Position numbers and translations under genes: made by a program. Below the pieces are notes generated by a model. It searched no databases. It was not told the origin of the DNA and was given only the letters and a program-made list of their open reading frames with translations. This document shows positions 3 through 36,841 of a stretch of DNA of 45,298 nucleotides, in pieces (position 1 is the first letter of the stretch; the number at the start of each line of letters is the position of its first letter). The stretch lies in the NCBI GenBank assembly GCA_012523295.1, contig JAAYIT010000307.1:1-45298 (forward strand), given 5' to 3'. The stretch is from Porphyromonadaceae bacterium. GTDB taxonomy: Bacteria > Bacteroidota > Bacteroidia > Bacteroidales > Paludibacteraceae.

Positions 3-131
3 GAAATTTATATTTCAGGCAAAGTTCAAGAAAAAATTCAAATCGAAAAATATAAAAATACTCTTGAAATCACTTATAGAAAGGAATTTCAGAGAATTAA
101 AAAATTAAACAACCGGACACTAGTGATATGA
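3..131 (+). CDS. 3' end of an unidentified CDS entering from the left edge
   Basis: An open frame runs in from the window edge for 42 codons and stops at TGA 129-131. It reads ...TLEITYRKEFQRIKKLNN..., which is charged and protein-like but matches no family I recognise. Its stop overlaps the ATG at 128 in an ATGA arrangement, which would allow translational coupling to the small ORF that follows. Another frame over the same bases is also open to about position 108, so coding is not certain. The rest of the gene lies outside the window. Confidence 0.3.
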   Translation, partial: EIYISGKVQEKIQIEKYKNTLEITYRKEFQRIKKLNNRTLVI

Positions 132-202
132 AACAGCCATTTAAGAGAAGTCTTAAACCCAAGAGAATGGTTAATGGCGTGTTCCATACGACCTTAATGT
201 AA
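128..202 (+). CDS. 24-codon leader-type small ORF, copy 1
   Basis: This is a 24-residue ORF, ATG 128 to TAA 200-202, beginning MKQP and ending NGVFHTTLM. A second copy at 35570-35647 begins MKQP and ends DGVFQTPLM. Both copies share an internal R-M pair, with Arg encoded by different codons (AGA and CGT). Both end exactly 18 nt before the start codon of a carbohydrate-active enzyme gene (GH43 here, GH105 there). The shared start, stop, frame and spacing argue against chance. It may be a leader peptide, a small regulatory protein or a conserved RNA leader that happens to be open. The family is not known to me. Confidence 0.45.
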   Translation: MKQPFKRSLKPKRMVNGVFHTTLM

Positions 203-220
203 AAAATAAAATATAACCGT

Positions 221-1219
221 ATGAGATCAATTCAATTCAAGCTTGTCGTTGTTATTCTTATTATCAATGTTTTTAATGCTTTTTCTCAGACAAAACACAG
301 GACATACAGAGAAAGTATCCCGCTGGATTCAATACGACTGAGTGATCCGGCAATTTTAGCTGACAAAAGCACGAAAATGTACTACATGACGGGGACTGGA
401 GGTCTTTTGTGGAAAAGTAAAGATTTGAAAAAGTGGTCAGGACCATACGTTGTTATCCAAACTGATTCAACTTCTTGGATGGGAAAAAATCCGATGATCT
501 GGGCAGCCGAATTGCATTATTACAATGGAAAGTATTACAATTTTGCTACTTTTACAAATCGGGATGTGAAGATTGATACCGTTCGAGGCAATGTTATTGA
601 GCGGCGTGCTTGTCATATCTTGGTGAGTGATAAAGCCGAAGGACCCTACAGACCAATGAAAGACAAAGAATATCTTCCGGCAAATATGCCTACTCTGGAT
701 GGGACACTTTGGGTGGATAAAGACAAAAAACCGTATTTGGTTTATTGCTACGAATGGCTTCAAAACTGGAACGGAACGATTGAGAAAATAGAGCTTAAAC
801 CCGATTTAAGTGGTTCGATTGGAGAGTCAAAACTGCTTTTCCGCTCCAGCGACTCACCATGGAGCAGGGAGGTGGAAAATGGAGTTGTAAAGCCGAATAA
901 AGTCACCGATGGCCCTTATTTGTTTGAAACGAAAAAAGGAAAATTAGGGATGATATGGACAAGCTGGATAGATAATGTATATACGCAGGGAGTTGCCTAT
1001 TCACAAAGCGGTACGCTCGATGGACCCTGGATTCATGAAAAAGAACCGATTACACCACCAAACTTTGGGCATGGAATGTTATTTCAGACATTCGAAGGAA
1101 AATGGCTGATGTCAGTTCACAGCCATAAAGATATCAATGGCCGATATCACCGTGTACCACACCTTTTTGAAGTGGACTTGAGTGGCAAAAAAATGAAAGT
1201 AAAGGGAATCATGCCCTAA
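221..1219 (+). CDS. Glycoside hydrolase family 43 protein (arabinosidase/xylosidase-like)
   Basis: This is a secreted five-bladed beta-propeller glycosidase of 332 residues, a complete single-domain GH43. Residues 1-23 are a signal peptide (hydrophobic core, then NAFSQ). The catalytic base is probably Asp42 in RLSDPAIL. The WAAELHYYNGKYY block (about 94-106) and Asp160 in TLDGTLW, the likely pKa modulator, follow family patterns. The third acid falls in VTDGPYLF (Asp230), where many GH43 enzymes carry Glu. GH43 enzymes usually release arabinose or xylose from side chains of arabinan, xylan or pectin, and the substrate cannot be fixed here. The 24-codon ORF at 128-202 lies 18 nt upstream. The gene is separated from the main pectin locus by about 14 kb. 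Confidence 0.85.
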   Translation: MRSIQFKLVVVILIINVFNAFSQTKHRTYRESIPLDSIRLSDPAILADKSTKMYYMTGTGGLLWKSKDLKKWSGPYVVIQTDSTSWMGKNPMIWAAELHYYNGKYYNFATFTNRDVKIDTVRGNVIERRACHILVSDKAEGPYRPMKDKEYLPANMPTLDGTLWVDKDKKPYLVYCYEWLQNWNGTIEKIELKPDLSGSIGESKLLFRSSDSPWSREVENGVVKPNKVTDGPYLFETKKGKLGMIWTSWIDNVYTQGVAYSQSGTLDGPWIHEKEPITPPNFGHGMLFQTFEGKWLMSVHSHKDINGRYHRVPHLFEVDLSGKKMKVKGIMP

Positions 1220-9372: not shown

Positions 9373-10248
9373 TTATTGTATCTCAAATTGTTTCTTTTCT
9401 CTTTTTATAAATGTTTTTAAATCAGTCGGTTTTTTACCCGTTAATTGTTCGTAAAAAAATGATAGTTTTGGTTCTTTCTGAAATCGAGGTAGAAAGTGAA
9501 GTAAGATCATTACTATAATCATTCCTTTCGCCATTCCTTCTCGCTTTTTAATCCAAAAAAAACTGAACGGATTAACATTTCTATATTTTATCGGATTGTC
9601 AATTGATTTGTTAATCAGCTCTGTCACTTTTTCAAAACTTTCGTTTTCCAATCCGGTTATTTCAATCGCTTTATTTTTATAATCTCCGAACTTATCTAAC
9701 AGGATTGCTCCAACCTCTCCAATATTCTCTATGTCTATCCAGTTGAATTTTGCTTTTCCTGCTGGAAGAATAATTTCACGTTTCGTTTTAATATCTCCAA
9801 TCAGCGTCGTGGTCAAGTTTTGCATGAAATAACTTGGACGAAGGAAAATGAAATCCAATCCATTTTCAATTAGTAATCGCTCTATTTTGTTGTGAGGAAT
9901 CACGCTACTTTTCTCTGCCCCTTGAACTGATAAAAAAACTACTTGATTTATACCATTTTCTTTAAATTTTAAGATCAAAGGTTTAAAAAATGTATCAATA
10001 TCCGAAATATGCGGTGGTCGCAATAAGAACACCGTGTCGATTCCTTTTAAAGCATTGTCAAATGTGTCAAAGTCCTCGAAGTCAAAATGTGTGTAGCTTA
10101 AATTGGAGAAGTCCTTAAATGTTATTTTTGCTTTCTCAATATTTCGGACACCTGCTATAATTCTATTTGAAGGCGCAATCTTTGTTAGAAATCGAATAAT
10201 TTCAAATCCGATGTTTCCGGTAGCTCCTGTTATCAGTATATTACTCAT
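9373..10248 (-). CDS. NmrA-like/atypical short-chain dehydrogenase family NAD(P)-binding protein
   Basis: 291 residues. A Rossmann fold starts at once: ILITGATGNIGFEI with the G8xxG11xxG14 dinucleotide motif. VFLLRPPHISDIDTF and VVFLSVQGAEKSSVIPHNKI, then LIENGLDFIFLRPSYFMQNL, are the usual middle blocks of NmrA/HSCARG-like proteins. FNWIDIENIGEVGAILL is the conserved C-terminal helix block. The classical YxxxK catalytic pair is not evident, so the protein may be a redox sensor or an epimerase/reductase-like enzyme. It is the first gene of the minus-strand run and the last accessory gene before thrS. Confidence 0.8.
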   Translation of the reverse strand: MSNILITGATGNIGFEIIRFLTKIAPSNRIIAGVRNIEKAKITFKDFSNLSYTHFDFEDFDTFDNALKGIDTVFLLRPPHISDIDTFFKPLILKFKENGINQVVFLSVQGAEKSSVIPHNKIERLLIENGLDFIFLRPSYFMQNLTTTLIGDIKTKREIILPAGKAKFNWIDIENIGEVGAILLDKFGDYKNKAIEITGLENESFEKVTELINKSIDNPIKYRNVNPFSFFWIKKREGMAKGMIIVMILLHFLPRFQKEPKLSFFYEQLTGKKPTDLKTFIKREKKQFEIQ

Positions 10249-35550: not shown

Positions 35551-35569
35551 CCTGAAAAATAAAACAAGT

Positions 35570-35647
35570 ATGAAACAGCCATTAGAAGCAAATTTTCACG
35601 CAAAGCGTATGGAGATTGATGGCGTGTTCCAAACGCCCTTAATGTAA
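35570..35647 (+). CDS. 25-codon leader-type small ORF, copy 2
   Basis: ATG 35570 to TAA 35645-35647, starting MKQP and ending DGVFQTPLM. It is the partner of 128-202: the first 14 bases (ATGAAACAGCCATT) and the 3' block (GGCGTGTTCCA.ACG.CCTTAATGTAAAAAA) are nearly identical, while the middle differs and has one codon more. The gap to the next start codon is 18 nt, as in copy 1. GGCGT and ACGCC inside the 3' block can pair as a small hairpin in this copy and imperfectly in copy 1. It lies 20 bases after a strong terminator, so any transcript reading it must start nearby or read through. Confidence 0.45.
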   Translation: MKQPLEANFHAKRMEIDGVFQTPLM

Positions 35648-35665
35648 AAAAAAGAATTTAGACAG

Positions 35666-36841
35666 ATGAAAAAAGTACTTTTATTTTCGACAATTATTAT
35701 TGCTATTACAGCTTTATTCACGGGTTGTGCAGCAACCAATAAAAACTATGTCCGAATGGCAGATTCTGAAATGATCCGGAATCCTGAGAGCTGGATGGTT
35801 GATTTCTCAAAAACATTAAAATGGAATTACTGTCACGGCTTGGAGTTGGAGGCAATTTACGATGTTTATAAAAAAACCGGAAATAAAAAATACTATGACT
35901 ATGCGTTGAGTTATGCAGATACAATGGTCAATTCAGATGGAACTATCAAAACTTATAAACTTGAAGAATACAACATTGACCGATTAAATTCAGGAAAATT
36001 ACTTTTCCCGATTTACAAAGAAACCAAAGATGAAAAATATCGTCTTGCTATGGATTTACTGAAAAGTCAGATGGACACGCATCCACGTATTTCCAATGGC
36101 GGTTTTTGGCACAAGAAAGTTTATCCGCATCAGGTTTGGTTAGATGGATTGTATATGGCCGGACCTTTTCTTGCAGAATACGGAGCCACCTTTAATGACC
36201 CGAAAATGTTTGATGAGGTGACATTGCAACTGATTACAGCGTATGAAGACTTGGTTGATGAAAAAACCGGATTGCTCTATCACGGTTGGGATGAAAGCAG
36301 GGAACAGCGATGGTCTGATCCGATAACGGGGAAATCACCCAATTTTTGGTCGAGAAGTATCGGCTGGTATATGATGGCTTTGGTTGATGCACTGGACTTT
36401 ATACCGGAAAGTCACCCCAAAAGAGGCGAGATTATTGATATATTGAATAAAACAGCAGTTGCCATTGAGAATTTTCGCGATCCAATTTCCGGTATGTGGT
36501 ACCAGGTTACAGACAAAGGGCACAAACAAGGCAATTATTTAGAATCCACCGGTTCGATTATGTTCATTTACACATGGATTAAAGGTGCGAAGAACGGATT
36601 TTTACCAAAAGAATTTTTGAAAAAAGGCGAACAGGCTTATGAGCAGTATCTCAAACAGTTTTTGAAAGAAAATAATGACGGAACAATCTCGATAACAAGC
36701 TGTTGTGCTGTTTCTGGACTTGGCGGTGAGAAAAATTACAGAGATGGTAGTTTCGAATATTATATATCAGAACCCATAAGAGACAACGATCCAAAAGCTG
36801 TTTCTCCGTTTATTTGGGTAAGTATAATGCTGGATAAATAA
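35666..36841 (+). CDS. Unsaturated rhamnogalacturonyl/galacturonyl hydrolase, GH105 (YteR/YesR-like)
   Basis: Cleaves the unsaturated uronic acid left at the non-reducing end by pectin lyases. 391 residues. Lipoprotein-like signal ALFTGCAAT (Cys21) suggests a periplasm-facing or surface anchor. (alpha/alpha)6 barrel blocks: NYCHGLELEAIYDVYKKTG, LNSGKLLFPIYKET, NGGFWHKKVYPHQVWLDGLYM with the catalytic Asp160, LLYHGWDES, FWSRSIGWYMMALVDAL and SGMWYQVTDKG, all as in GH105. The gene is preceded by the leader ORF at 35570-35647. It acts downstream of the three PL1 lyases encoded in this window. Confidence 0.92.
   Translation: MKKVLLFSTIIIAITALFTGCAATNKNYVRMADSEMIRNPESWMVDFSKTLKWNYCHGLELEAIYDVYKKTGNKKYYDYALSYADTMVNSDGTIKTYKLEEYNIDRLNSGKLLFPIYKETKDEKYRLAMDLLKSQMDTHPRISNGGFWHKKVYPHQVWLDGLYMAGPFLAEYGATFNDPKMFDEVTLQLITAYEDLVDEKTGLLYHGWDESREQRWSDPITGKSPNFWSRSIGWYMMALVDALDFIPESHPKRGEIIDILNKTAVAIENFRDPISGMWYQVTDKGHKQGNYLESTGSIMFIYTWIKGAKNGFLPKEFLKKGEQAYEQYLKQFLKENNDGTISITSCCAVSGLGGEKNYRDGSFEYYISEPIRDNDPKAVSPFIWVSIMLDK

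Follow-up and report, generated by a model that had tools for sequence, protein, structure and literature searches.

Introduction

IS608, of the IS200/IS605 family, retains a TTAC target on its left flank and carries guides that pair with its cleavage sites and with the target, according to the accessible parts of two accounts (PMC5934647, PMC6006769). REP sequences and REPINs go together with RAYT transposases (TnpA_REP), and for the Bacteroidetes the portions of the literature available to us list a subclass 2.6 with ‘atypical secondary structures’ (PMC6006769, PMC3733652). The TAACTGA direct repeats of Beggiatoaceae, Cyanobacteria and some Bacteroidetes form arrays of a heptamer directly 5' of start codons, and a regulatory role is proposed for them in the accessible part of their description (PMC4679880).

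Here we describe a repeat of about 95 nt from a Porphyromonadaceae bacterium (GTDB family Paludibacteraceae), two copies of which lie in the 45,298-nucleotide stretch that was analysed (hereafter the window; assembly GCA_012523295.1, contig JAAYIT010000307.1, positions 1 to 45,298). The repeat is very probably a non-autonomous mobile element that inserts at T^ATGAA(A/T) in a fixed orientation, mostly at start codons. Like IS608, as far as the accessible accounts go, it inserts 3' of a short target kept on one flank (for the present repeat TTCAT, in bottom-strand reading), and it has hairpin ends and an internal guide that can pair with the target and the ends (PMC5934647, PMC6006769). Unlike IS608, it contains no transposase, and no tnpA with these ends was found; a single central guide serves both ends, where IS608 has a guide at the foot of each hairpin; and the target is a start-codon context.

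With REP sequences and REPINs, in the portions of the accounts available, the repeat has in common that it is short, non-autonomous, hairpin-forming, present in high copy number and either single or clustered (PMC6006769, PMC3733652); it differs from them in its length of about 95 nt, its two hairpins and its place at start codons. The subclass 2.6 structures, whose sequences are given in the supplement of PMC6006769, may be identical with the repeat. Membership of the REP/REPIN group was rejected on two counts: reading of the consensus of our alignment A1 and of elements from other families revealed no GTAG/GT[AG]G or CGTC at the hairpin foot, and no Y1 (RAYT) gene flanked by copies was found (30 loci, 9 genomes; 6 loci of the own genome). 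As with the TAACTGA repeats, copies stand directly before the start codons of unrelated genes; two stems and insertion at the start codon do not figure in the accessible part of the TAACTGA account (PMC4679880).

Rfam gave no match in the window at the gathering score and none at E 0.1 in 11 loci, and a search of the literature, with subscription papers, preprints and supplements outside its scope, found no description of such an element. The MITEs of Porphyromonas gingivalis, which are reportedly short, non-autonomous Bacteroidales elements of the inverted-repeat type, share the first three properties and are set apart by description as inverted-repeat MITEs. A classical MITE, moved by a DDE transposase, was also considered and rejected, since the two ends of the repeat do not form terminal inverted repeats and pair with the internal guide instead.

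Results

Two copies of the repeat in the window

A preliminary description of this DNA had reported twin short reading frames, each 18 nt before a glycan enzyme gene, and both were found again. ORF 128-202 (24 codons and a stop) ends 18 nt before the ATG at 221 of a GH43 gene (PF04616, E 3.2e-31), and ORF 35570-35647 (25 codons and a stop) ends 18 nt before the ATG at 35666 of a gene matching Glyco_hydro_88 (PF07470, E 8.9e-109), a model that takes in GH105 too. The features of the two loci are as follows.

128..220, + strand: element copy 1 (subfamily A), beginning with the ATGAAAC of its 5' end and reaching to the base that precedes the ATG at 221
128..202, + strand: mini-ORF of copy 1, 24 codons, a passenger frame
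132..141, + strand: SL1 5' arm of copy 1, AACAGCCATT, partner 173-183 (fold z-score and pair table)
140..157, + strand: inner hairpin of copy 1, TTTAAGA-loop-TCTTAAA (pair counts; A17/T29 and G17/C29 variants)
173..184, + strand: SL1 3' arm of copy 1, AATGGCGTGTTC, the left half of the central guide
185..191, + strand: SL2 5' arm of copy 1, CATACGA, the right half of the central guide (covaries in relatives)
217..223, + strand: SL2 3' arm of copy 1, CCGTATG, taking in the GH43 start codon
221..1219, + strand: GH43 host gene (PF04616), outside the element, with copy 1 at its start codon
35570..35665, + strand: element copy 2, subfamily B, one codon longer and more diverged (row L075 of A1)
35570..35647, + strand: mini-ORF of copy 2, 25 codons, a passenger frame
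35666..36841, + strand: GH88/GH105-type host gene (PF07470), with copy 2 at its start codon

Covariance model R1, whose training copies included copy 1, matched copy 1 at 127-225 (118.9 bits, E 4.4e-21) and copy 2 at 35569-35670 (75.3 bits, E 1.6e-12); copy 1 is likewise part of A1. No further copy in the window was counted with this model, the third match (9891-9994, E 0.46) being without the GTTCCAT core. In copy 1 the inner hairpin competes with the innermost SL1 pairs, and in copy 2 SL2 is broken, an internal CAAACGC standing opposite a 3' end ACAGATG. A SusD-type gene (PF07980, 33480-35474) lies directly 5' of copy 2, which places this copy in an apparent polysaccharide utilisation locus.

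Copy number and anatomy

The 3' block of the repeat, used as a pattern, has 49 exact matches in the 4.0-Mb, 417-contig genome and 168 (88 + 80) when up to three mismatches are allowed, with none for the reversed control; the covariance model finds at least 150 copies (150 candidates scored). The 85 stretches fetched from among the 168 matches hold 120 recognisable copies in 93 arrays, 67 of them single, 25 double and one triple. By eye, host N-termini resemble the ones found in DNA polymerase I, IspF, TrpG, glutamate dehydrogenase, dihydroorotase, biotin carboxylase, tRNA-dihydrouridine synthase and many lipoprotein-like proteins; with copies before genes resembling the first four, the repeat is not specific to glycan genes, and the copy catalogue rules out a feature limited to the pair in the window. 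The earlier view of a portable sequence at a fixed distance before unrelated genes, as opposed to an ordinary gene duplication, is borne out by the genome-wide matches, and the outcome named as speaking against it, a lack of further copies before other genes, is the opposite of what was found.

The unit, roughly 95 nt in general and some 93 nt in this genome, runs from ATGAAACAGCCATT to ...TCGT, followed directly by ATGAA(A/T); arrayed units have a period of mostly 92-96 nt and are joined by ATGAAA. Ten of the 93 arrays are without a complete 3' end, including five with a MITE-like insert, which leaves 83 arrays for the counts below, and A1 leaves out one of the 107 full copies (L113:654-763). 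The MITE-like insert, of about 150 bp, lies in the tails of five copies (L058, L060, L093, L098 and L103), has ends like ATGATTATCCG...CGGATAATCAT and in most cases an inner hairpin GGGACTAACCGC...GGTTTGTCCC. Behind it an ATG is reached in four of the five copies and ATAAAA in the fifth.

Two stems that covary between families

The central GTTCCATNNG pairs on its left with the 5' end of the element (SL1) and on its right with the 3' end CNNATG (SL2), so that the ATG of the downstream gene itself sits in the second stem. In this genome the 5' end pairs with the SL1 3' arm listed above and the neighbouring CATACGA with TCGTATG, the seventh SL2 pair being poorly kept (43/109). Since both ends pair with it, the central segment approximates the reverse complement of a unit-to-unit joint. 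The consensus folds more stably than its dinucleotide shuffles, with z-scores of -3.8 on the + strand and -4.1 on the - strand. RNAalifold returned no consensus structure on A1, in whose near-invariant copies the stems hardly vary; the stems are therefore supported by folds of single sequences together with covariation across families.

Both stems covary across the Bacteroidales. In congeners the SL2 arms compensate for each other (CATACG/CGTATG, CATGTG/CACATG and CATCTG/CAGATG). Among 150 listed matches outside this genome (G000), chance matches included, both variable SL2 pairs are Watson-Crick in 82, compared with a mean of 19.1 and a maximum of 37 in shuffles. For the rows with an A+T-rich spacer the figure is 79 of 112, against a mean of 44.9 and a maximum of 61 in 5000 within-genome shuffles; the 79 rows come from 19 genomes of 15 families and comprise ten pair types, one of the genomes (G095) looking like chance. 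One locus set was found by a pattern that fixes part of SL2.

For SL1, the arms of 143 distinct elements gave -9.49 kcal/mol in cognate combination and -6.58 when swapped, the best of 200 shuffles, which ignore relatedness, reaching -6.96; the 5' ends in this set vary (ACGAGCCATG, ACATCCATG, ACGCCCATG). The set from which these energies and the AUG accessibilities below were taken holds only sites with both variable SL2 pairs Watson-Crick and was not selected for SL1, so the SL2 energies and the accessibilities are non-independent and the SL1 energies are independent.

In many elements (for example L200 and L204) SL1 has CGAG opposite CGAG, a tandem G-A mismatch, which is exchanged for plain pairs in other subfamilies (ACATCCATG/CATGGATGT). 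There are also minimal elements (L273, L326, L327) in which SL1 is a short hairpin directly before GAGTTCCAT, which suggests that the interior of the element is dispensable.

Probable insertion at start codons

Sixty-five of the 83 arrays whose 3' end is complete run precisely up to the first codon of an ORF that encodes at least 60 aa (64 ATG, one GTG). No such ORF follows the remaining 18, in four cases because a longer repeat, described below, comes next; with the array taken out, all 18 fall outside any ORF of at least 100 aa.

Related genomes supply sites without the element. The polA-type gene, which in this genome is preceded by two copies in tandem, has the same ATG in 7/7 congeners (69-75% identical, 487 residues), and in none of the seven is there an element in the upstream 150 nt. 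At a serA-type gene of genome G076 the element is absent from 2/2 congeners (G182 and G216), both flanks being aligned at 71-76% identity; the empty sites read GCATAATATAAATAGGTATGAGAAAAG and GCATAATATAATAGGTATGAAAAAAG and the filled site GGTTAATATTATATCAA-ATGAAACGAGC...ACTC-ATGAAAAAAG. This serA-type locus is the one empty site with alignable upstream sequence. That the element is mobile and targets start codons is highly probable.

The target reads T^ATGAA(A/T), with the orientation of the insert fixed. A T precedes the outermost copy in 55 of 74 cases (47 of 66 without the eight copies that follow the CGT of an older element), the corresponding figure for native starts being 41 of 108. At the 3' boundary, 61 of the 65 gene arrays and also 17 of the 18 others have the hexamer ATGAAA or ATGAAT (AAGAAA in the eighteenth), which argues that ATGAA belongs to the DNA target and not only to gene starts; at native starts of the same loci, taken as the first ATG, the second codon is AAA or AAT in 22%. 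The 5' end of the element is nearly always ATGAAAC and the base after ATGAA on the 3' side varies, which indicates that the target is retained at one end of the insert.

On 23 whole or long contigs (225 kb), TATGAAW was counted at 18 possible starts and at 24 intergenic and 114 intragenic positions, and ATGAAW at 53, 92 and 466; the window alone has 1, 0 and 23 of the former and 9, 12 and 107 of the latter. Relative to these available sites, gene starts are over-represented among the arrays, which split 65 to 18. The target sequence alone is thus insufficient, and the loss of harmful insertions is needed together with a further preference or selection: the missing intragenic insertions are explained by loss of the harmful ones, and the excess over intergenic sites needs preference or selection.

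In 23 of 26 arrays the copy nearest the gene scores higher against the profile than its neighbour, and neighbours are often of different subfamilies. It seems that a new copy is added next to the gene and leaves the older one on the outside. Such stacking on the gene side fits an old 3' end followed by ATGAA being the better match to the guide; the alternative is a relaxed decay of the outer copies.

Distribution among relatives

At E up to 0.01 the covariance model found further copies in five of seven congeners, with 15 in G004, seven each in G001 and G003, and two each in G005 and G007; G006 and G002 gave none. With the variable bases left open, the pattern GTTCCATNNG-15..45-CNNATGAAA has matches, some of them due to chance, in 85 of 198 genomes from the order, its reversed control giving 0-2 matches per genome. 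The highest counts were 159 in G076, 127 in G204, 108 in this genome, 68 in G100, 31 in G161 and 28 in G047. The last two carriers of the element are Natronoflexus pectinivorans (G161) and Breznakibacter xylanolyticus (G047), both of which GTDB places in the Bacteroidales. Across the class, a stricter GAGTTCCAT pattern, which does not fit the subfamily of this genome, matches in 27 of 295 genomes, some of them by chance, with 17 copies in G385. The GTDB records with matches (at least 119 stretches) include Geofilum, Labilibacter, Carboxylicivirga, Marinifilum, Paludibacter, Prevotellaceae and two Chitinophaga.

In the two Chitinophaga (L288, L328) the gene immediately behind the element reads as rpmH, for ribosomal protein L34. 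Four viral contigs of IMG/VR match the element pattern (L353-L356); the match in L355 is an apparent real element before ATGAAA, and that in L356 looks like chance.

Mechanism and the search for a mobiliser

In bottom-strand reading, a retained (A/T)TTCAT comes before the element, which has GTTTCAT at its other end, and the central ATGGAAC can pair with both TTCAT ends, with one bulged base. The flanks are as in IS200/IS605 elements, with a target retained on one side (T^ATGAAW), ATGAAAC on the 5' side and an empty site without the element, and with ATGAAA on both flanks a short target duplication is possible. The stems and the shared guide are present, with covariation; their correspondence to the end hairpins and cleavage-site guides of IS200/IS605 elements is putative.

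In the mechanism that we propose, the element would be mobilised in trans by a Y1/HUH-type single-strand transposase, with the central guide pairing with both ends and with the target. The native leader stays upstream, now preceding the element's own ATGAAAC, and the element provides an A-rich leader just before the gene ATG, so that the gene stays readable. A retained target and a guide follow the logic of IS608, which makes a single-strand, Y1-type transposase the likeliest mobiliser; by this analogy the Y1/single-strand mechanism in particular is a strong possibility that still falls somewhat short of probable.

Y1_Tnp genes are present in nine of the ten high-copy genomes, the own genome included; G216, with about 20 element matches, has no Y1 hit. 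At 30 Y1_Tnp loci of nine genomes, a few of the 35 listed Y1 matches being without a locus, the GTTCCAT core never marked element ends on both sides, single copies of the core lying 1.1-1.2 kb from Y1 in L392 and L122, and a profile search of the six Y1 loci of the own genome found no copies on both sides. A neighbouring Y1 gene was rejected as the mobiliser, since no Y1 gene has element ends on both sides in the own or the high-copy genomes. At 11 sites without a near 5' end, a scan of ORF N-termini for a transposase between element halves brought none to notice.

A longer repeat, ATGAAACCCACATG..., whose end is of the same type, occurs at nine places in this genome, a contig end following within 89-126 nt in each. 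Seven of the nine are exactly at the 3' joint of the short element, one is in a CapD-like gene (by reading) at CTGT^ATGAA and one is elsewhere; the repeat begins ATGAAACCCACATGATTTTCC (L412-L420, on contigs C96, C412, C377, C268, C313, C139, C33, C27 and C291). It may be the autonomous partner, with its interior missing. The interior and the other end were not recovered from 40 further contigs, 18 of them with N at both ends, and the repeat is absent from IMG/VR, by exact pattern, and from PLSDB. Contig C31 opens with a similar reading frame that is uninterrupted, in which AAACTATATGAAG stands in place of the end of the longer repeat.

Two further related repeats share an end TTCAA(A/C)CCCTGATTCGC followed by AT at contig ends (L046 start, L088 end and L104 start; L033, L442 and L458 ends) and are probably insertion sequences.

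The alternative that survives best keeps the element mobile by another route, through a site-specific recombinase or the reverse transcription of an RNA leader and not through Y1. Arrays of mixed subfamilies and one-sided stacking do resemble the insertion of cassettes, and the excess at gene starts would fit a step at the mRNA level. However, no candidate gene was found beside the copies, Y1_Tnp being the one family systematically searched, and a one-sided retained target with an end-pairing guide is nearer to IS608 as described in the accessible part of its account (PMC5934647). Such a route has an appreciable chance, though we consider it doubtful.

Effect on the gene and regulation

The predicted probability that the gene AUG is unpaired has a mean of 0.16 and a median of 0.06 (n=158, elements chosen for an intact SL2), and is 0.46 when the CAT arm is replaced in silico. 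It is plausible that SL2, lying over the gene AUG, alters the initiation of translation. If the genes named by eye are essential, the element must permit enough of it.

We took as private those substitutions found in at most two copies each, 129 in 93 equal-length rows, and treated them as having arisen after insertion. They number 1.0 to 1.3 per site in the SL1 arm, the inner hairpin and the guide, 1.4 in the tail, and 0.5 in the four sites of the 3' arm, the retrieval of copies being biased to an intact core.

These data bear on a second alternative, a cis-regulatory leader RNA in which SL2 would hide the start codon until a signal, a protein or upstream translation opened it, the copies being kept as a regulon. 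The gene AUG within a covarying stem, with its lower predicted accessibility when the CAT arm is present, the fixed distance to the gene and the over-representation of gene starts beyond the available target sites are all in keeping with it. It is opposed by the target genes, which by eye have no evident common function, by the 18 of 83 arrays not before an ORF of at least 60 aa, by the similar rates of private change in stem and non-stem sites of young copies, and by the congeners without an element at the polA- and serA-type genes. We consider this reading unlikely. From the earlier proposal of a leader RNA that controls expression, a conserved structured leader remains, with two covarying stems and the gene ATG in the second; control of expression is a possibility.

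The enclosed reading frame

The mini-peptide is a passenger, and after insertion its frame is without coding constraint. Of the private substitutions, 99 fall inside the ORF; 7 abolish the start (4.1 expected) and 6 introduce a stop (3.8 expected), 20 are synonymous (18.5 expected) and 66 nonsynonymous (72.6 expected), and they are spread over the codon positions as 34, 28 and 37 (33.8, 31.9 and 33.3 expected), in rows mostly picked for at most one mismatch in codons 17-24, the last third of the ORF, where changes may be hidden. The frame is kept in 92 of the 110 aligned copies, a proportion that fits the neutral decay of young copies, which is also how the earlier remark that the copies keep one reading frame is to be understood. 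Of the four aligned copies from sister species, two have lost the frame or carry a stop, elements of other families have, by eye, early stops or other frames, and the mini-peptide has no match in Pfam. The arginine described earlier as conserved through different codons varies from copy to copy, the residue being R, K, E, D, Q, G, S or N.

A leader peptide (MKQP...GVFHT.LM) acting by its translation, for example through stalling or coupling, is consistent with the retention of the frame in most copies and with the distance of 18 nt from stop to gene that both copies in the window show, but is rejected as highly improbable because the start-loss, stop, synonymous and nonsynonymous counts are those expected under no coding selection, the frame being moreover lost or not kept in relatives and unmatched in Pfam.

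Discussion

The family resembles IS200/IS605 elements and REP sequences in how it may work; REP membership fails, and the transposase family is not assignable. We tentatively suggest, as a reading with a lesser chance of being right than of being wrong, a guide-paired mobile family extending over the class that has evolved to land on start codons: a central strand would splint the two ends and the target ATG, insertion would re-create a hidden start codon, and bursts of more than 100 copies per genome would bring large sets of unrelated genes under one common structure at the point of translation initiation, which would make the element a transposon and a builder of regulons at once.

Insertion at a start codon usually breaks the gene. 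Behind this element the gene can still be read, and this apparently holds for presumed essential genes too, those for ribosomal protein L34, DNA polymerase I and biotin carboxylase as named from their N-termini by eye. It is abundant in many lineages of the Bacteroidales, where annotations may mistake it for small proteins or leader peptides, and it offers a natural test of how translation starts in Bacteroidota when the AUG is in a stem. If the pairing of guide and target is confirmed, the family would provide a differently built case of single-strand transposition directed by base pairing, beside that of IS608.
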